Positions 7,942 to 16,697 of a stretch of DNA of 64,000 nt are shown piece by piece. Below the pieces are notes generated by a model that saw only the letters and a list, made by a program, of their open reading frames with translations, had not been told where the DNA came from and searched no databases. Origin of the DNA: Dyadobacter beijingensis DSM 21582 (lineage in GTDB: Bacteria > Bacteroidota > Bacteroidia > Cytophagales > Spirosomataceae); contig NZ_KB907786.1 of assembly GCF_000382205.1 (NCBI RefSeq), forward strand, positions 1,488,001 to 1,552,000, in the 5' to 3' direction. Every line of letters starts with the position of its first letter. Within the stretch, counting starts at the first letter, position 1. The translations under genes and the position numbers were made by a program.

Positions 7942-9912
7942 ATGCCATTTTCCATCGACCGTAACACCGTTAAACTGCTGAGAATCCCGTTCTCATTTTT
8001 CCTGGCACCGCTCTTTCTGTTTGCTTACAGCCAGGCAGAAACGGTGGTGCACCGGCAGGCTTTGTGGAGCTTCCTGATCATCCATTTGCTCGTTTATCCG
8101 GCCAGTAATGGCTACAACAGCTACATCGACCGGGACGAGGACAGTATTGGCGGACTCGAAAAGCCGCCATTGCCTACCATTCAACTCTTTTATCTTACAA
8201 TATTTCTGGATACCGCCGCAACCGTTTTGGCGCTGGTATTCGTAAATACGTTGTTCGCTATTTGCATGGTGTTGTACATCGCCGCATCGCGGGCGTATAG
8301 TTCGAAACAGGTCCGGCTGAAAAAGTACCCGTTCGCAGGGTTCCTCACGGTAGTGTTTTTTCAGGGGGCATTTACCTACTATATGTCGATTGCCGGTATT
8401 TCGGGCGGTGCATTGCGGATGGATATGGCAAATGTGTTCGTGCTGCTGGGCTGCTCTTTTCAGATCGCAGGCGCGTACCCGCTCACGCAGGTATACCAGC
8501 ACGAGCAGGACCTGCGCGACGGTGTGGTCACATTGAGTTACAAACTGGGCTATATCGGCACATTTGTGTTCACGGCGTGCATGTTTTTGCTCTGTAATGT
8601 GTGCTATTATTTGTACTTTACCAGCAAGGGGCTTGGAATGATTTTTTTTATCGTCCAGGTATTCTTCGTCCCGATCGTGATCTGGTTTGGCGTGTGGTTC
8701 TCGCTGGTGTGGAAAGACCGGCGGCAGGCCAATTTCCGTAACACGATGCGGATGAACTGGATCGCGGCGATTTGCATGAATAGTTGTTTCATCGTTTTAA
8801 TTATTATCAACAGAATCCCATTGAGTTATCTATCCGCTATTGAAACAGCCGTTCCCGAATATGGTTATGCACAGGAAACGCTCACCGATTTCTACCTGCG
8901 ATCGACCGACGACCTCACAACACGTCGGAAAATCAAGATTGTAGCCAGTAAAACGGGTATCGAAAAGCGCTATTCCGTCATCGCGGATTTTGATAAAAGC
9001 CCCGAAGAATACACTTTTTTCAACCGCAATGCCGACCTGCTGCCTGAGCCGACGCTTTCGCAGCGGATGCAGCTTTACCAGCAGCACGCCACGGCACTAT
9101 CGCGGAAGGCCATTGAGCAAATCCCTGATTTTGAATATACTAAAAAGCAGATTACCCATTTGATCACCGTCACTTGCACGGGGCTGTTCGCACCTGGGCT
9201 TGATGTGGAACTGATGCGTGAACTGCGGCTGAACCCGTCCATCGAGCGCAGCAGCGTTAATTTCATGGGCTGCAACGCAGCGGTACTGGCACTCAAAAAC
9301 GCCGATGCGATTTGCCGCAGCAATGTGAATGCAAAGGTGCTCGTCGTTTGCACGGAACTCTGTTCGATCCATTTTCAGAAGCGGTACAATGACGATTACC
9401 TGCTATCAAACATGCTTTTCGGTGACGGGGCGGCTGCGCTGATCGTTTCGTCCCAGCCCGAAATGCACTACCAGCATGCGGTAAAAATCGATGGTTTTAA
9501 ATCGATGATCCTCCATAATGGCTATTCCGACATGGCCTGGCAGCTTTCGGAGACGGGTTTTATAATGAACTTGTCGTCGTATGTACCCGATCTGATCCGC
9601 GACAACATCCAGCCGATGCTCCGATCGGTAGGGCTCAAAGCGGACGATTACCGGCATTGGGCTGTCCATCCGGGCGGCAAACGCATTGTCGACGATTTTG
9701 CGGCGGCGTTGGAATTGGACAAATGTCTGCTCGCGCCTACCTACAATGTCCTTAGGAACTATGGAAATATGTCTTCGCCGACGGTACTTTTTGTCTTGAA
9801 AGAAGTACTGGAAAAAGCGAAATCCGAGCACTTGGGTAACCGGGTATTTGCCGCGGCATTTGGCCCCGGGCTGAGCATCGAAACCATGCAATTACAATAT
9901 GTTCAGGCATAG
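7942..9912 (+). CDS. UbiA prenyltransferase - type III polyketide synthase fusion
   Basis: A single 656-residue frame joining two enzymes. Residues 1 to about 290 are a UbiA-superfamily membrane prenyltransferase with 8-9 hydrophobic helices and both Asp-rich motifs: NGYNSYIDRDEDSIGG near residue 52, and HEQDLRDGVVTLSYKLG near 190. From residue 294 (LSYLSAIETAVPEYGYA) it is a complete type III PKS of the chalcone-synthase fold. Its catalytic Cys444 lies in FMGCNAAV, His576 in WAVHPGGK and Asn609 in YGNMSSP; the His-Asn spacing of 33 equals that of chalcone synthase. There is no stop or shift at the joint, where the last helix runs straight into the PKS. The next two genes overlap in series. 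The product is unknown; a membrane-tethered prenylated or alkyl pyrone/resorcinol/quinone is plausible. Confidence 0.88.
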   Translation: MPFSIDRNTVKLLRIPFSFFLAPLFLFAYSQAETVVHRQALWSFLIIHLLVYPASNGYNSYIDRDEDSIGGLEKPPLPTIQLFYLTIFLDTAATVLALVFVNTLFAICMVLYIAASRAYSSKQVRLKKYPFAGFLTVVFFQGAFTYYMSIAGISGGALRMDMANVFVLLGCSFQIAGAYPLTQVYQHEQDLRDGVVTLSYKLGYIGTFVFTACMFLLCNVCYYLYFTSKGLGMIFFIVQVFFVPIVIWFGVWFSLVWKDRRQANFRNTMRMNWIAAICMNSCFIVLIIINRIPLSYLSAIETAVPEYGYAQETLTDFYLRSTDDLTTRRKIKIVASKTGIEKRYSVIADFDKSPEEYTFFNRNADLLPEPTLSQRMQLYQQHATALSRKAIEQIPDFEYTKKQITHLITVTCTGLFAPGLDVELMRELRLNPSIERSSVNFMGCNAAVLALKNADAICRSNVNAKVLVVCTELCSIHFQKRYNDDYLLSNMLFGDGAAALIVSSQPEMHYQHAVKIDGFKSMILHNGYSDMAWQLSETGFIMNLSSYVPDLIRDNIQPMLRSVGLKADDYRHWAVHPGGKRIVDDFAAALELDKCLLAPTYNVLRNYGNMSSPTVLFVLKEVLEKAKSEHLGNRVFAAAFGPGLSIETMQLQYVQA

Positions 9913-10594
9913 GAGCTTGCAAAAAGAGCTGCTGGACGCGGAGCACATTCCGCCGGCGGATCTCTTTCAAAATCTCCGGGAGCTGGATTTTATCAACCAC
10001 TGGCTGGGCGGTTACGGCATTTCATTTGATGCCTTGAAACGCGTGCTGCAAAAAGACAAGCGCTGCGTGCTGGTCGATATCGGCTGCGGGGGAGGGGATA
10101 CGCTCAAACGCATTGCCCACTGGAACCGGAAGGCCGGTTACGATCTCGACCTGTATGGCATCGACCTCAAAGCGGATTGCATTTCCTACGCCGAAGAGAA
10201 TCTGAACGGCAGCGGCGTAAAGCTGATATGCGATGATTACCGACAGATTTACAGGTACTTACCGCAGGTTGATATGATCCATGCCTGCCTGTTTTGCCAC
10301 CACCTCACGGACGACCAGTTGATTGAGCTCGTACAATTTGCATTGAACAACCGGGCGGTCCTGGTGATCAACGATCTGGAAAGAAATCCGATAGCGCATT
10401 ATTCGATCAGGTGGCTTACCGGACTTTTCTCGAAATCTTACCTCGTGAAAAATGACGCGCCATTATCGGTATTGCGGGGTTTTAAAAAGAAGGAATGGCT
10501 ACGAATTTTGCAGGCGGCAGGTGCCAAATGCTTTTCGGTACGGAATAAATGGGCATTCAGGCATGAAGTGATCGTGTATGGAAACGCGGACTGA
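9899..10594 (+). CDS. Class I SAM-dependent methyltransferase of the type III PKS operon
   Basis: A 231-residue protein with a Rossmann methyltransferase fold. Motif I is VLVDIGCGGGDTL (about residues 58-70), the acidic end of strand 2 is in LYGIDLKADCI, and the post-motif region contains DMIHACLFCHHLTDDQLIEL. Its start overlaps the UbiA-PKS gene by 14 nt, and its end overlaps the oxidoreductase by 17 nt, so the three are probably translationally coupled. In other bacteria, type III PKS genes are often followed by a methyltransferase acting on the alkylpyrone, alkylresorcinol or quinone product; I infer the same role. The residues after 165 (SIRWLTGLFSKSYLVKNDAPLS) resemble UbiE-like lipid-quinone methyltransferases. 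Confidence 0.85.
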   Translation: MFRHRSLQKELLDAEHIPPADLFQNLRELDFINHWLGGYGISFDALKRVLQKDKRCVLVDIGCGGGDTLKRIAHWNRKAGYDLDLYGIDLKADCISYAEENLNGSGVKLICDDYRQIYRYLPQVDMIHACLFCHHLTDDQLIELVQFALNNRAVLVINDLERNPIAHYSIRWLTGLFSKSYLVKNDAPLSVLRGFKKKEWLRILQAAGAKCFSVRNKWAFRHEVIVYGNAD

Positions 10595-11717
10595 ACATTT
10601 CGAATGCGCGATCATCGGCGGCGGGCTGGCGGGTCTCTGTCTGGCGATCCAACTGGCCGATGCGGGCCGGTCCGTGATTGTATTCGAGAAACACAAATAT
10701 CCTTTTCACAAAGTCTGCGGGGAATACATCTCGATGGAAAGCTGGCCGTTCCTGGAAAGCCTGGGGCTGCCGCTGGGCGATCTCGCGCTACCCAGGATCA
10801 GCAGCCTTGGTATTAGCTCTGATCGGGGATTTCTATTGAATCATCCCCTCGGAATGGGCGGTTTTGGTATCAGCCGGTACAGTTTGGATAACCATCTTTT
10901 TGAAATTGCCTTGCGCAAAGGCGCGCGCGTCGTGCAGGAGTGCCGCGTGACAGACGTGCAGGGAAATTTCGATGGTGGTTTTCAAATCCGTACATCCGTC
11001 GGAAATTTTACTTCAAATACAGTTTGCGGAAGCTACGGGAAATATGCCCCGCAATTTATCCAGCTGGACAATCCCAATGCATTGAATGCGGATAACCAGA
11101 ACTATATAGGCGTCAAATACCACATTCAAGCCGATTTTCCTTCCGACCGTATCGAACTGCATAATTTCAGCGATGGTTATTGCGGGATTTCAAAAGTCGA
11201 CCGTGACTGGTATTGCCTTTGCTACCTTACTACCGCGCGGAATTTGCTCGAAAATGGCAAAGATGTGAAACAAATGGAGGAAGCGGTTTTGTATAAAAAC
11301 CCTTTTTTGAAAAAGTACTTTACGAATTCTACTTTCGTGAACCGCCAGCCGTTCATCATCAGCAACGTGCAATTCAGCAAAAAGCAAACGGATACGAAGG
11401 GCATCTTTCTGCTCGGCGACGCAGCGGGCTCTATTACGCCGTTATGCGGGAATGGTATGAGCATGGGCATGCGGGCTTCCAAGCTGCTGGCAGCAGAACT
11501 GGTACCTCTTTTAAGTGGCAAGCAAACCCATTATAATGCATTGAAAAACTATCAACGCACCTGGAATGCGGCTTTCGGGACGAGAATCAGGGCCGGGTAC
11601 CATCTCCAAAAGCTGTTCGGAAAGAGCCGCACGACCGATCTGGCATTGAAATTCCTGGATCGCATACCCGCGCTTACTTCAAAGCTTGTTTCGCTCACGC
11701 ACGGGCCGGTGTTCTGA
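10578..11717 (+). CDS. FAD-dependent oxidoreductase (geranylgeranyl-reductase/monooxygenase-like)
   Basis: A 379-residue flavoprotein. The FAD dinucleotide motif AIIGGGLAGLCLAIQLADAG sits at residues 10-30, the substrate-side element KYPFHKVCGEYIS at about 40-53, and the second FAD motif GIFLLGDAAGSITPLCGNGM near residue 275. This layout is that of the geranylgeranyl reductase / aromatic hydroxylase group, so it may hydroxylate or reduce the ring or prenyl chain made by the preceding enzymes. It overlaps the methyltransferase gene by 17 nt. Its last 39 nt overlap, in antisense, the 3' end of the crtYcd gene on the other strand. Confidence 0.85.
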   Translation: METRTEHFECAIIGGGLAGLCLAIQLADAGRSVIVFEKHKYPFHKVCGEYISMESWPFLESLGLPLGDLALPRISSLGISSDRGFLLNHPLGMGGFGISRYSLDNHLFEIALRKGARVVQECRVTDVQGNFDGGFQIRTSVGNFTSNTVCGSYGKYAPQFIQLDNPNALNADNQNYIGVKYHIQADFPSDRIELHNFSDGYCGISKVDRDWYCLCYLTTARNLLENGKDVKQMEEAVLYKNPFLKKYFTNSTFVNRQPFIISNVQFSKKQTDTKGIFLLGDAAGSITPLCGNGMSMGMRASKLLAAELVPLLSGKQTHYNALKNYQRTWNAAFGTRIRAGYHLQKLFGKSRTTDLALKFLDRIPALTSKLVSLTHGPVF

Positions 11718-12413
11718 GGGATTATTTTTCTCCGATTTTTGAAGAAAAGTTTCGAACAGGAATGCATTCAGCAGCAGCATGAGCATGCCGTAAAAAACAT
11801 CCTCGACAGGGATTGTTAAAATGCGGACGCCGATATTTTGCGCATTGTTATACCATACCACCGGCTTTTCGGGCCCCGTACCCGTGAGAATGCCGTTCAC
11901 GATGAAAAACGGGACGAGCAAAAACATATGGGAATAGTAAAACAGCCCCAGCCATTTCGGCTTGATCTGCCATTTTAAATACATCAGCATAATGGCCAGT
12001 CCGCTCACCGCCGAAACCGTATAATAACGCCCGGCACCCGCTAATCCCATGATTACGCAAAGTGCAAGGAAGGTCCAGGTTACGGCCTGTGTCGCCTTCA
12101 CGCGCATTTCCGGCCCTTTCCAAAGCCGGAAACAGTAGTAGGTGAACATACACGCATATGGAATGCAAATAAAAAACAGGATCTCCTCGATCGGCAGGCC
12201 GAACAGCCCGATGCCGGTCAGATATTGCGGTGTAAAGCCCCAGACGCCGATTTTGGTGAAATAGCTGTCCCAAACGATAAACGGTACCGCCGTGATCAGG
12301 ATCGCCGGCCATAGTGCTTTCCAATGCCGGTCGAGGCGGATTCTGGGATGGAAGGACGCCAATAGCGGTACCGAAATAGCCCCCAGGTCCACCAGCAGGT
12401 AGAGCAGCCTCAT
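11679..12413 (-). CDS. crtYcd: Lycopene cyclase, CrtYc-CrtYd fused type
   Basis: A 244-residue integral membrane protein with about seven helices and two homologous halves, each holding the family acidic signature: LPIEEILFFICIPY in the first half and IPVEDVFYGMLMLLLN in the second. This is the CrtYc/CrtYd (TIGR03462-type) cyclase, fused as is usual in Bacteroidota, which converts lycopene to beta-carotene. I set the start at the ATG at 12413 (MRLLYLLVDLG) because it forms an ATGA overlap with the crtZ stop; the longer upstream frame lies inside crtZ. It is the last gene of the carotenoid operon and overlaps the convergent oxidoreductase gene by 39 nt. Confidence 0.92.
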   Translation of the reverse strand: MRLLYLLVDLGAISVPLLASFHPRIRLDRHWKALWPAILITAVPFIVWDSYFTKIGVWGFTPQYLTGIGLFGLPIEEILFFICIPYACMFTYYCFRLWKGPEMRVKATQAVTWTFLALCVIMGLAGAGRYYTVSAVSGLAIMLMYLKWQIKPKWLGLFYYSHMFLLVPFFIVNGILTGTGPEKPVVWYNNAQNIGVRILTIPVEDVFYGMLMLLLNAFLFETFLQKSEKNNPSEHRPVRERNKL

Positions 12414-12883
12414 TTCGCAGTCGCTTTTTGGGCTTCGCGGAAATATTTGAGCGGCACCCATAGCATTCCGAAACACTCGCCTCCGTGCTTCCCGAGGTGC
12501 TTATGGTGCATTTTGTGCGCCCTGCGAATGGCTTTCAGGTAAATGGAATCGGTGTTGCGGAAGAGCCGGAAGCGTTGGTGAATGAAAATATCGTGGACGA
12601 TGAAATACGTGAACCCGTAAATGGTAATGCCCAACCCGACCCAGAAAAGCCAGTTGAACCCCGCATTTAATCCCAGCCATAAAAACGTAATGCCCGGCGT
12701 GGCGAAAATGACGAAGAAGTAATCGTTCTTTTCGAAAAAATCGCCGTCGTCGCGCTGGTGGTGGTCGTGGTGGAGCGACCACAAAAGTCCGTGCATGAGG
12801 TACTTATGCGCAAGCCAGGCCACACATTCCATGGCCACGAATGCGGCAAGGGTAATCAGTGAATTAATGATCCAGTGGGGCAT
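12410..12883 (-). CDS. crtZ: Beta-carotene hydroxylase
   Basis: A 157-residue membrane di-iron hydroxylase of the CrtZ / fatty-acid-hydroxylase superfamily. The histidine boxes are complete: HKYLMHG, HHDHH, HDIFIHQR and HKMHHKH. It would hydroxylate the beta-ionone rings of beta-carotene at C3, giving cryptoxanthin and zeaxanthin. It follows idi by about 30 nt and is coupled to crtYcd through an ATGA stop/start overlap. Length and helix pattern are normal for bacterial CrtZ. Confidence 0.93.
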   Translation of the reverse strand: MPHWIINSLITLAAFVAMECVAWLAHKYLMHGLLWSLHHDHHQRDDGDFFEKNDYFFVIFATPGITFLWLGLNAGFNWLFWVGLGITIYGFTYFIVHDIFIHQRFRLFRNTDSIYLKAIRRAHKMHHKHLGKHGGECFGMLWVPLKYFREAQKATAK

Positions 12884-12913
12884 TATGTTTGGCCATTTGG
12901 TTTAAAACTAAAA

Positions 12914-13429
12914 TCAGGGCGCAATCCTCCGCGCGATCACCGGGATACAAATCTTGAACCATTCGGTGTAGGCCTGCGGGTTTTGCGCAATATCGGTTTG
13001 TATTTCAGGGATTGTCAGGTATTTGTAATCGCTGGCTTCCGCCGGGTCGATTACCGGTGTGGCATCGGTGGTACCGATGAACACATGGTCGAGTTCGTTT
13101 TCCGTAAGGCCATTTTCAAGGTCTGCGCGGTACTGGAAGGTGTACATGAATTCCAGGTCGGTTTCAATGCCCATTTCCTCGCGCAGGCGGCGTACGGCCC
13201 CGTGATGCACATCCTCGCCCGGGAGCGGGTGGCTGCAACAGGTGTTCGACCAGAGGCCTTCCGAGTGGTATTTCCCAAACGCCCGTCTTTGCAGCAGCAT
13301 TTCGTTCTTGGAATTGAAAATGAACACGGAGAATGCGCGGTGCAGCACACCCTTTTCGTGCGCTTCGAGCTTGGGCATCAGGCCAATGGCTTCGTCGTTT
13401 TCCGTTACGAGGACAACTTGGTCGGTCAT
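12914..13429 (-). CDS. idi: Isopentenyl-diphosphate delta-isomerase, type I
   Basis: A 171-residue Nudix-fold enzyme that interconverts isopentenyl and dimethylallyl diphosphate, supplying precursor for carotenoids. The catalytic Cys is in SNTCCSHP (about residue 64), the metal-binding histidines in HSEGLW and CSHPLPGE, the Nudix-like AVRRLREEMGIE follows, and the catalytic Glu is in TENELDHVF. Length is typical. It sits between crtB and crtZ in the carotenoid operon. Confidence 0.95.
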   Translation of the reverse strand: MTDQVVLVTENDEAIGLMPKLEAHEKGVLHRAFSVFIFNSKNEMLLQRRAFGKYHSEGLWSNTCCSHPLPGEDVHHGAVRRLREEMGIETDLEFMYTFQYRADLENGLTENELDHVFIGTTDATPVIDPAEASDYKYLTIPEIQTDIAQNPQAYTEWFKICIPVIARRIAP

Positions 13430-13489
13430 AGGATGGTGGGTTTCAGGTTCTGAGATTGTGGGATATACTTCCTACACAACACAGAAACG

Positions 13490-14326
13490 TCATAAAAGAT
13501 CAAACTGGTGCCTCAGCAGCGACCGAAACATCAGTCCGAACTTGTCGATATCCGGAATGCGTATCCGCGCATTCATGACTTTTTCCGGCGGCGTCTCCTT
13601 GATCCGCATGAACAGTTTTTTGTAATAATAATAAGCCAGGTAAACCCCCCGCCGCGAGCTGGCGGGCAATCTGCGGATGCCAATCAATGCCGCCTCGAAA
13701 TCCTCTTCGATTTCCTGCTGGATCACCGCTTTTTCGGCATAGGAGAAATGGTTGAAATTCACTCCCGGGAAATAAGTACGGCCTAGCGTTTGATAATCGG
13801 CCTTTAAGTCGCGCAGGAAATTCACTTTTTGGAATGCCGCGCCGAGTTTCATGGCATAGGGTTTCAGCGATTCGTACATGGCGTGGTCGTTTTCCGTAAA
13901 AACCCGCAGGCACATCAAACCGACCACCTCCGCCGAGCCCAGTATATATTCGTCGTAAGAGTCCTGCGTGTGTTCTTTTTGGGACAAATCCATTTCCATG
14001 CTCTTCAAGAAAGTGTCGATCAACTCCCATTCGATGGCGTAGGCGTGCACCACATGCTGGAAACTGTTGAGAATGGGGTTAATGCTGATCCGTTCCCGGA
14101 TGGCTTCCTGCGTTTCGCGGCGGATGCGCGCCATCATTACCCCCTGGTCGTAGCCGTGAAAGCTGTCGACGATCTCGTCGGCAAGCCTTACGAAGCCGTA
14201 AATGCCGTAAATGGCCCTGTGGAGCGAAGGTTTCAGGAAATAAATACCGAGGGAAAACGAGGTGCTGTACAGCTGCGTGGTTTTCTTGCTGCACGACGCC
14301 GATAAATCATCGAAAAGGCTTTTCAT
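13490..14326 (-). CDS. crtB: Phytoene synthase
   Basis: A 278-residue squalene/phytoene synthase that condenses two geranylgeranyl diphosphates to phytoene. The first Asp-rich motif is RLADEIVDSF (Asp50, Asp54). The second region is AAFQKVNFLRDLKADYQTLGRTYF, with the family NxxRDxxxD arrangement. It starts 3 nt after the crtI stop. No geranylgeranyl diphosphate synthase (crtE) is in the window, so that substrate must come from a gene elsewhere. Confidence 0.95.
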   Translation of the reverse strand: MKSLFDDLSASCSKKTTQLYSTSFSLGIYFLKPSLHRAIYGIYGFVRLADEIVDSFHGYDQGVMMARIRRETQEAIRERISINPILNSFQHVVHAYAIEWELIDTFLKSMEMDLSQKEHTQDSYDEYILGSAEVVGLMCLRVFTENDHAMYESLKPYAMKLGAAFQKVNFLRDLKADYQTLGRTYFPGVNFNHFSYAEKAVIQQEIEEDFEAALIGIRRLPASSRRGVYLAYYYYKKLFMRIKETPPEKVMNARIRIPDIDKFGLMFRSLLRHQFDLL

Positions 14327-14329
14327 AAG

Positions 14330-15829
14330 CTAACTGTTTAGGTATTTGAGAACTTCACGGGCGGCAATGGTGCCGGAAATAATGGCCGGAGGCACGCCCG
14401 GGCCCGGCACCGTGAGCTGGCCGGCAAAAAACAGGTTGCTTACCTTCGGACTTTTCAGTTTGGGTTTGAAAATAGCGGTCTGGCCGAGCGTATTGGCGAG
14501 CCCGTAGGCATTGCCCTGGTAAGCATGGTAATCGTTTTTGAAATCGGACACCGAGTAGCTTTTCTTCAAAACCACGTGGTCACGGATATTTTCACCGGCA
14601 AACTTTTCGAGCCTGTCCATCAGCAGCTGGTAATAATGCTCCCGAATAGGCTCCGGGTCGGGGAGGCCGGTGGCAATGGGCATGAGCACAAACACATTCT
14701 CCTGGCCCTCCGGCGCTACCGACGAGTCGGTTACCGAGGGGCAGCAGACGTAGAACAGCGGCGCGGTCGGCCATTTTTTGTCCTTGTAAATTTCTTCCGC
14801 GTGCAGGCCGAAATCCTCGTCAAAAAACAGGTTATGGTGCCGTAGCTTCGCGATTTTTTTATTGATGCCAAGATAAAAAAGCAGGCAGGAGGGAGCAAAC
14901 GTGCGGCTCTCCCAGTAGTCGTCGGCGTACTGGCGGTCGGCCTCGGGTAACAATGCATGCTCAATGTGCCGGTAATCGGCGCTGCCCACGATGGCGTCCG
15001 TTTTGATGGAGCCGCTGGCCGTATGGACATGGCTGACCTTCCCGTGGTGCGTTTCCAGCCTCTCCACCGTTTCGGACGTGCGGAAATTGACACCGGCTGA
15101 GCGCGCAATGTCGCGAAATGCGTCGGCCACCGTCCCAAATCCGCCCATGGGGTAAAAAGTACCCTGTTTGAGGCCCGAGTAGTTCATCAGACTGTACAAC
15201 GCGGGTGTGTCTCTCGGCATCGCGCCGAGGAACAGCACGGGAAATTCGATCAGCGCGAGCAGGCGCGGGTCTTTGAAATACCGCCGTGCATGCCGGCTGA
15301 ACGAGCTGAACAATTGCAGCCGCATAGCCTGCGCGAGCAATTTCAGGCTCATGAATTCGATGAAAGAGTGGCCGGGTTTATAAACCATTTCATCCATTCC
15401 CACGCGGTATTTGAATTCCCCGTCGGCGATGAACTCGCGGAGTTTGTCACCCGCACCGGTTTCCGTCTGTTCGAAAAGCGCGCAGAGCTGCTCGAAATCG
15501 GCGGGAATGTCCATGAGCTCATTGCCTGAGAATACGACGGCAAAACCGGGGTCCAGCTGTTTGAGATCATATAAATCGGCCGTGGTATGTCCGAATTGCG
15601 CGTAAAAGCGGTCGTACACATCGGGCATCCAGTACCAGCTGGGACCCATATCGAAGGTAAAGCCCTGCCCGGAAAACGTGCGCGCCCTGCCGCCTAAGGT
15701 GTCGTTCTTCTCAAAAACCGTTACCTCACAGCCCTGCCGCGCGAGCAGCGCGCTTGCCGCCATGCCCGCAAAACCCGCGCCGATGACGCTTACATTGCGC
15801 TTTCCATTATAAATCGGTGTGTGTGGCAT
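14330..15829 (-). CDS. crtI: Phytoene desaturase
   Basis: A 499-residue FAD enzyme that desaturates phytoene to lycopene. It has the N-terminal dinucleotide motif VSVIGAGFAGMAASALLARQG and the bacterial-type phytoene dehydrogenase C-terminal signature LFFAGQLTVPGPGVPPAI. Start chosen at the ATG at 15829 (MPHTPIYNGKR); an in-frame TTG lies 9 nt upstream. The start overlaps the carH stop (15807) by about 23 nt, which couples its translation to the photoreceptor gene. Confidence 0.95.
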   Translation of the reverse strand: MPHTPIYNGKRNVSVIGAGFAGMAASALLARQGCEVTVFEKNDTLGGRARTFSGQGFTFDMGPSWYWMPDVYDRFYAQFGHTTADLYDLKQLDPGFAVVFSGNELMDIPADFEQLCALFEQTETGAGDKLREFIADGEFKYRVGMDEMVYKPGHSFIEFMSLKLLAQAMRLQLFSSFSRHARRYFKDPRLLALIEFPVLFLGAMPRDTPALYSLMNYSGLKQGTFYPMGGFGTVADAFRDIARSAGVNFRTSETVERLETHHGKVSHVHTASGSIKTDAIVGSADYRHIEHALLPEADRQYADDYWESRTFAPSCLLFYLGINKKIAKLRHHNLFFDEDFGLHAEEIYKDKKWPTAPLFYVCCPSVTDSSVAPEGQENVFVLMPIATGLPDPEPIREHYYQLLMDRLEKFAGENIRDHVVLKKSYSVSDFKNDYHAYQGNAYGLANTLGQTAIFKPKLKSPKVSNLFFAGQLTVPGPGVPPAIISGTIAAREVLKYLNS

Positions 15830-16697
15830 TGTCTGCAATGATTTCGTTCAGTTTGTCGATGGATTGAATATGATGAATGCGGGGGGAATGGGGGCCTTCA
15901 CCCGAAAAGCATATCCTGCAATGCGGGAAGTCCGCGGAAAGCCGTTCAAGCAGCTCAGGGACGCGGTTTTCGGGCTGGTTACCTACGAAAAATGTATAAA
16001 TATGGGTGGGGGTAATATCGCGGGCGACGGATCGCAGGTCGGAGTAAGGCACGCGGGTACCCAGGTATACCGCCTGTTTGCCGGCCCGCAGCAATACGTA
16101 ATAGGCAAAAAGCAAGCCTATCTCGTGGTCTTCGCCTTCGTGCAGAAAAAGCAACCATTTCTGGTCGTTCACCGCAGGTACAGGCAACGCGTCGATCGCC
16201 GCGAACAGTTTCTGGCGGATCAGGTTGGACAGGAAATGCTCCTGCGCAGGCAGCATCGCATCCTTCGTCCACATGAGTCCCGTGCGTACGAGCAGCGGGT
16301 ATAGTACGCGCTGATAGGTTTTTTCGATGCCCAGCAGCCCGACGGCCTCCGCGAAAAGCCGGTGAAACGCAGCCGCATCGTAGGCTGCAACGGCGCTGAT
16401 GGCCCGGTTGATCCACGCTTCCACCGCCTGGTCGTCTTGTAATGAGCCCGCGATGATCCGGTCTATCTCCTCGCCGATCTGCGCGTGGCTGAGCTGACTG
16501 ATGTGCGAAATTTTCATCCCGCGGTTCAGCAACGTACACACATTCAGGAGTTTCTTAACGTGGTCGTCGTTGTAATACCGGATATTCGTGTCGGTCCTTT
16601 CGGGTTCGAGCAGACCGTAACGTTGCTCCCAGATGCGTATCGTGTGCGCCCTGGTACTGGTAATGCGTTCGAGGTCCCGGATCGAATAGGTCGACAT
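15807..16697 (-). CDS. carH: CarH-type B12-dependent photoreceptor / MerR-family repressor
   Basis: A 296-residue regulator heading the carotenoid operon. Residues 3-65 form a MerR winged helix (YSIRDLERITSTRAHTIRIW and LLEPERTDTNIRYY). The middle helical domain holds Trp143 followed after nine residues by Glu153-His154 (the Wx9EH motif). The B12-binding Rossmann domain carries E189-x-H191-x-x-G (EDHEIG), the base-off cobalamin lower-ligand motif. Both motifs define light-sensing CarH, which in Thermus and Myxococcus binds adenosylcobalamin in the dark, tetramerises on operators and releases DNA in light. Start at the ATG at 16697; the in-frame TTG at 16721 would lie upstream of the probable transcription start. 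B12 binding and photosensing here are inferred. Confidence 0.9.
   Translation of the reverse strand: MSTYSIRDLERITSTRAHTIRIWEQRYGLLEPERTDTNIRYYNDDHVKKLLNVCTLLNRGMKISHISQLSHAQIGEEIDRIIAGSLQDDQAVEAWINRAISAVAAYDAAAFHRLFAEAVGLLGIEKTYQRVLYPLLVRTGLMWTKDAMLPAQEHFLSNLIRQKLFAAIDALPVPAVNDQKWLLFLHEGEDHEIGLLFAYYVLLRAGKQAVYLGTRVPYSDLRSVARDITPTHIYTFFVGNQPENRVPELLERLSADFPHCRICFSGEGPHSPRIHHIQSIDKLNEIIADNATHTDL

Follow-up and report, generated by a model that had tools for sequence, protein, structure and literature searches.

The window analysed here, a 64,000-nucleotide stretch of the Dyadobacter beijingensis DSM 21582 genome, carries a single uninterrupted open frame on the forward strand (7942–9912) that starts with ATG and encodes 656 amino acids. 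Pfam places a UbiA domain at residues 22–271 (PF01040, 60.9 bits, cut-off 34.2), Chal_sti_synt_N at residues 297–506 (108 bits, cut-off 27) and Chal_sti_synt_C at residues 523–653 (80.6 bits, cut-off 27), which bears out the original prediction that a UbiA prenyltransferase and a type III polyketide synthase (PKS) share one frame. The catalytic triad it had assigned to the PKS, Cys444/His576/Asn609, is present in the window gene and kept in 32/32 fused genes of the genus. The TTG at 8821–8823, where the prediction had the PKS part begin, is codon 294 of the fused frame. Features of the gene and its operon are collected in Table 1.

Table 1 Features of the fused gene and the genes that follow it, in window coordinates.
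Feature	Position	Strand	Basis or remark
UbiA-type prenyltransferase domain, codons 1–291	7942..8814	+	Pfam; AF2 model; nine predicted TM helices
Depressed synonymous change, codons 278–305	8773..8856	+	61 observed vs 144 expected
Four-residue joint, codons 292–295, from TM9 (ends 291) to first PKS strand (296–303)	8815..8826	+	AF2 secondary structure
TTGAGTTA: ancestral PKS start TTG overlapping the former UbiA stop TGA, which is no longer in frame	8821..8828	+	Alignment of 32 fused genes
Type III polyketide synthase domain	8821..9909	+	Pfam Chal_sti_synt_N/C; PDB matches to plant PKSs and PKS18
Putative second product, 363 aa, from inner TTG	8821..9909	+	Inferred start
SAM methyltransferase gene, next in operon, overlaps PKS end	9899..10594	+	Same place and strand in relatives
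FAD-dependent oxidoreductase gene (geranylgeranyl-reductase/UbiH-like), last of conserved operon	10578..11717	+	

An AlphaFold2 (AF2) model of the whole fused protein has a pLDDT of 91.4 and a pTM of 0.74, and the best 50 Foldseek rows for this model are all type III PKS structures. When the UbiA half was modelled alone (residues 1–293, pLDDT 93.9), Foldseek matched it to AfUbiA (4tq3), ApUbiA (4od5), DGGGP synthase (7bpu) and UBIAD1 (8djk), all with the same nine-helix fold and with TM-scores of 0.60–0.70 to the model. Sequence identity in the best 16 rows is 12–19%, and a PDB sequence search with the UbiA sequence gave no match to a solved structure up to E 10. Members of the superfamily carry two Asp-rich motifs, approximately NDxxDxxxD and DxxDxxxD. 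Both had been predicted here, and two motif sites are indeed conserved, their residues being invariant in 28/28 aligned UbiA sequences, but the motifs are degenerate (N56xxN59SxxD63xD65 and H187xxD190) and looser than had been claimed. In this, and in its C-terminal PKS, the fused protein departs from these four structures.

The PKS half has the fold and the Cys-His-Asn triad of PKS18 (1ted), with which its VNFMGC and ELCS stretches align. It is about 25–32% identical to type III PKSs (PKS18 and plant chalcone/stilbene-type enzymes) and differs from them in that its N-terminus is joined to a membrane protein via four residues. The NCBIfam equivalog for DpgA (3,5-dihydroxyphenylacetyl-CoA synthase) gives a score of 161 bits, below its cut-off of 425. 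The N-terminal half has the superfamily profile and, in the predicted models, the nine-TM fold of UbiA proteins, and the C-terminal half has both Chal_sti_synt domains above cut-off together with the triad of type III PKSs. Judged from its sequence, the 656-residue frame is a genuine fusion of UbiA with a type III PKS whose catalytic residues are intact, and prenyl transfer is predicted for it. Estimates of dN/dS are 0.05–0.10 for UbiA and 0.04–0.09 for the PKS (6/8 pairs each gave a value); these values come from 12/16 comparisons, the rest being dS-saturated and dS exceeding 1 in most, and by this measure both domains are under purifying selection.

The methyltransferase and FAD genes lie downstream on the same strand in 63/65 adjacent-pair loci (L033–L099, duplicates included); L041 and L070, which lack this arrangement, are cut off by contig edges. 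The conserved operon (UbiA, type III PKS, methyltransferase, FAD oxidoreductase), which the fused gene opens here, is found mainly in Bacteroidota. According to the available text of PMC10896814, hidABC and planctomycete operons bring together a type III PKS, a methyltransferase and an FAD oxidoreductase and make alkylresorcinols; these three genes are shared with the operon described here, in a different order, and the word prenyltransferase has no occurrence in that text. In Streptomyces, a type III PKS cluster makes polyketide quinones (available part of PMC9927152). Among the literature matches listed there was no characterised operon that combines a prenyltransferase and a type III PKS. 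From the operon content, the pathway product is probably a methylated, oxidised, prenylated alkylresorcinol, pyrone or quinone. Beside the operon and convergent with it is a gene set at 11679–15838 on the reverse strand which includes a lycopene cyclase (PF18916) and whose other members we take, by translation, to be CrtZ-, Idi-, CrtB- and CrtI-like. Matches to this set recur beside many Dyadobacter loci, and none was seen in the ~6 kb flanks of loci not named Dyadobacter.

Our family survey comprised 222 genomes, 48 of them Dyadobacter with the present one included. Within the genus, 32 genomes have the one-frame form, 13 have two adjacent genes and three (G057, G062 and G075) lack a strong match, so the situation that would have spoken against the fusion, two separate genes in all relatives, does not obtain. 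The same single frame is kept in 31 other Dyadobacter genomes at 72–88% identity, which argues that the fusion is not a product of chance. Among the 47 relative loci compared, 11 are fused, all named Dyadobacter, and 36 are separate, 10 named Dyadobacter and 26 not; fusion was thus seen at 0/26 loci not named Dyadobacter, of which L070 is cut by a contig end. A sample of the phylum (395 genomes, including the present one) yielded no further fusion among the matches listed. G472, the only other full-length match in one row among those listed (46% identity over 5–649, one TAG inside), was considered as a second fusion outside the genus and was ruled out, as its open reading frames are two genes, UbiA terminating at a stop of its own that lies three bases ahead of the TTG of the PKS. 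No UbiA-type III PKS fusion was found in the titles and abstract openings of the literature matches listed. At 20 more distant loci of the family (L100–L119), a UbiA gene lies on the same strand in five, on the opposite strand in nine and nowhere in the stretch in six. At L093 (G122, another genus of the family) the PKS is 60% identical and is followed by the methyltransferase and FAD genes; no UbiA was found on that locus.

The two-gene relatives suggest how the frames were joined. In all 13 Dyadobacter pairs the genes overlap as TTGA, in which TGA is the UbiA stop and TTG the PKS start. The fused genes retain TTGAGT, reached in the other frame, and the TGA triplet is still present in 32/32 of them, out of frame by a one-base shift. 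Since the triplet was kept and only the frame moved, the stop was side-stepped and not mutated, contrary to the recent loss of the UbiA stop codon that had been proposed. In the closest comparisons, the junction of the separate pair L082 is AATCATTTCCTTTGAG; that of the fused L032, AATCATTTTCCTTTGAG, has exactly one T more, and that of the fused L049, AATCATTTTCCCTTGAG, differs from L082 by one additional base and one substitution. It looks as though the fusion arose through a one-base insertion just upstream of TTGA. The genome that carries L032, G082, has an rpoB (C2:4280704-4284544, L203) split into two overlapping frames, possibly an assembly error, and its junction is the less trustworthy of the two, though L049 shows the same state.

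On the UbiA+PKS protein tree two state changes are needed, and a single fused clade is not rejected (AU p 0.292). The rpoB tree needs three changes, its starred branches force two, and G073 and G082 stand apart from the main fused lineage; here too one clade is not rejected (p 0.173). A single origin is possible, and two or more origins fit the trees better. Reversal from fusion to two genes was considered for the two-gene L083 (G064), which falls inside the fused rows in the UbiA+PKS tree, but G064 lies outside the fused rows in the rpoB tree and we do not claim it.

Several lines of evidence bear on whether the old PKS start is still in use. The inner TTG sits not merely close to, but exactly at, the position where free-standing PKSs begin: among 40 separate relatives the codon at the homologous start is TTG in 28, GTG in seven, ATG in four and CCC in one. 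The longest nucleotide run that is invariant across the 32 fused genes is TTGAGTTA; the third-longest, TATGTT, holds the ATG of the next gene and serves as an unplanned positive control. Codon 294 is TTG and codon 295 is AGT in 32/32 fused genes; in these genes TTG accounts for 21% of all Leu codons, and 17% of those for Ser are AGT. Codon 294 is alone in being codon-invariant among 37 invariant Leu columns, as is codon 295 among 18 invariant Ser columns, and no other of the 65 invariant columns of six-codon residues shares this property. Taking all 283 invariant columns other than Met/Trp, seven are codon-invariant (31, 186, 232, 235, 282, 294 and 295), and 294/295 is the sole codon-invariant pair among 153 adjacent pairs of amino-acid-invariant columns. 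The window gene has 17 TTG codons; 294 alone is unchanged across the 32 fused genes. Codon changes were counted on a tree that was built with the joint left out and spans 6.06 substitutions per site: the other 36 invariant Leu columns show a mean of 11.8 codon changes (minimum 4) and the other 17 Ser columns a mean of 9.6 (minimum 2); the Poisson probability of no change is 7.7e-6 for codon 294 and 6.9e-5 for codon 295, figures which rest on parsimony counts and treat columns as alike.

One mark of a dual-start gene, a start codon kept at the nucleotide level inside a longer frame, is found here. Because the invariance of TTG AGT falls at the exact homologous start position, we read the old start, on balance, as still used; initiation at 8821 probably still yields a free PKS alongside the fused form. 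Inner in-frame starts that give a long and a short protein are known, for example in cheA. As in cheA, there would be two nested products in one frame; the difference is that the inner start here would descend from the start of a once separate gene.

Synonymous change is also depressed more broadly around the joint (Table 1). The dip at codons 278–305, measured at 17 amino-acid-invariant columns, was equalled in 0/20000 permutations and persists when codons 294 and 295 are omitted (61 observed vs 124 expected); the lowest 25-codon window of the gene, at 0.36 of expected, is centred on codon 300. Known starts dip little in the same scan (0.90 for the window centred on codon 19, near the true start, and 0.88 for window 642, near the methyltransferase start), and starts in these genes are thus not usually marked by a broad dip. 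A second, unrelated dip lies near codon 228 (about 8587–8661, 0.39). There is also an invariant GTTGTTT at codons 281–283 (8783–8789), which begins 38 nt upstream of the old start.

TTG is a weak start, and its surroundings are mixed. RNA accessibility at the inner TTG has a median percentile of 0.956 within its own gene and is at least 0.9 in 21/32 genes, with a minimum of 0.35. Upstream there is an A at -6 in 30/32 and at -12 in 31/32; at -3, where A is favoured, all 32 have C. Shine-Dalgarno signals are missing in Bacteroidetes. Initiation in F. johnsoniae is helped by adenines at -3 and -6, and positions -6 and -12 are both named in that work (available text of PMC6847099). The base immediately before the TTG varies (A 16, T 13, C 3). 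It is the third base of codon 293, which encodes Pro in 32/32 (CCA 16, CCT 13, CCC 3), and residue 291 is basic in 32/32 (R 29, H 2, K 1).

In the AF2 model, TM9 ends at residue 291, across the membrane from the Asp motifs, and the PKS begins with a strand at 296. The 32 fused proteins average 11.8 K+R in the loops of the Asp-motif side and 3.3 in those of the opposite side. Charge and homology make it probable that the Asp-motif face points inward and the C-terminus outward. For AfUbiA, a C-terminus-out arrangement was inferred from charges and called consistent with an E. coli UbiA experiment (available part of PMC4106721). A gain of positive charge after TM9 was considered as a sign of cytoplasmic retention (residue 291 is K/R in 30/32 fused proteins) and dropped, as 5/13 separate Dyadobacter UbiAs also have K/R within their last four residues; mean TM9 hydrophobicities were set aside since the windows were not exactly aligned between the fused and separate groups. 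Type III PKSs use CoA thioesters, which are cytoplasmic. With the C-terminus outside, plain channelling would therefore need an unusual TM9, whereas a free PKS made from 8821 would not.

We propose, with a probability of roughly 0.6, that a one-base insertion fused UbiA to the PKS, that the old TTG is still used so that the gene gives two products, and that the free PKS is the working synthase. An insertion just before the TTGA overlap would put UbiA in frame with the PKS, and ribosomes starting at 7942 would make one 656-residue protein. Continued use of the TTG at 8821, as its nucleotide-level conservation suggests, would add the free PKS as a second product. If UbiA has its canonical topology, the fused copy of the PKS would be outside the cytoplasm and so apart from malonyl-CoA; the free PKS would then probably be the working synthase, with UbiA tolerating the tail. 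The C at -3, the weakness of TTG as a start, the variable accessibility and the small dips at known starts count against this two-product model, and it does not account for the dip at codon 228 or the invariant GTTGTTT. Pro293 and the basic residue 291, which it does not need, point to a value of the fused protein itself.

If, instead, only the 656-residue protein were made, the PKS would be held at the membrane beside the prenyltransferase and the polyketide handed over to it. The retention of a single frame in 32/48 Dyadobacter genomes, the purifying selection on both domains, and a Pro293 with varied third base next to a basic 291, suggestive of protein-level constraint at the joint, would all be expected of such a plain functional fusion. 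We nevertheless regard it as fairly unlikely, because it leaves the synonymous invariance of TTG AGT unexplained and sits badly with the position of the TM9 end, the loop charges and the orientation assigned to AfUbiA. It is rather improbable that the fusion is ordinary and TTGAGTTA is some other DNA or RNA element, such as an inner promoter, a regulator site or a stop for frame-shifted ribosomes. Conservation of codons does not by itself identify the element, the TGA has been kept as well as the TTG, and another invariant run starts 38 nt upstream; yet TTGAGTTA matches exactly the start-codon position of 39/40 separate homologues, and codons 290–293 vary, leaving no fixed slip site just upstream. 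Nor does the variable base before TTG fit TANNTTTG, a promoter element of Bacteroidota. A sequencing or assembly error, as the original prediction had allowed, or a stop lost very recently in a single strain, might be suspected from the short T/C runs near the joint and the split rpoB of G082, but is refuted by a frame common to 32 distinct Dyadobacter genomes across the 6.06-substitution tree.

Type III PKSs are dimers. One extension of the two-product reading, which we consider speculative and improbable, is that fused and free PKS subunits pair and the fused copy recruits soluble enzyme to the prenyltransferase. For this, TM9 would have to leave the PKS on the cytoplasmic side, contrary to the topology usual for UbiA; a PKS domain facing out of the cytoplasm, which is the alternative, would be even stranger.

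On the two-product reading, these genomes form a natural series in which overlapping genes become one frame through a single base, with the old start codon undecayed, and offer a testable case of operon gene fusions arising without loss of the separate product. They also caution that two fused domains do not necessarily imply metabolic channelling and that membrane topology is to be checked first.

A different route to a joined protein is suggested by three of the 13 separate Dyadobacter pairs (L089, L090 and L091), in which UbiA ends AAT TTT TTC CTT TGA and so contains T_TTT_TTC, a form of the classical -1 slippery site. A -1 shift at this site would enter the PKS frame, and some two-gene species might thus also make the fusion.
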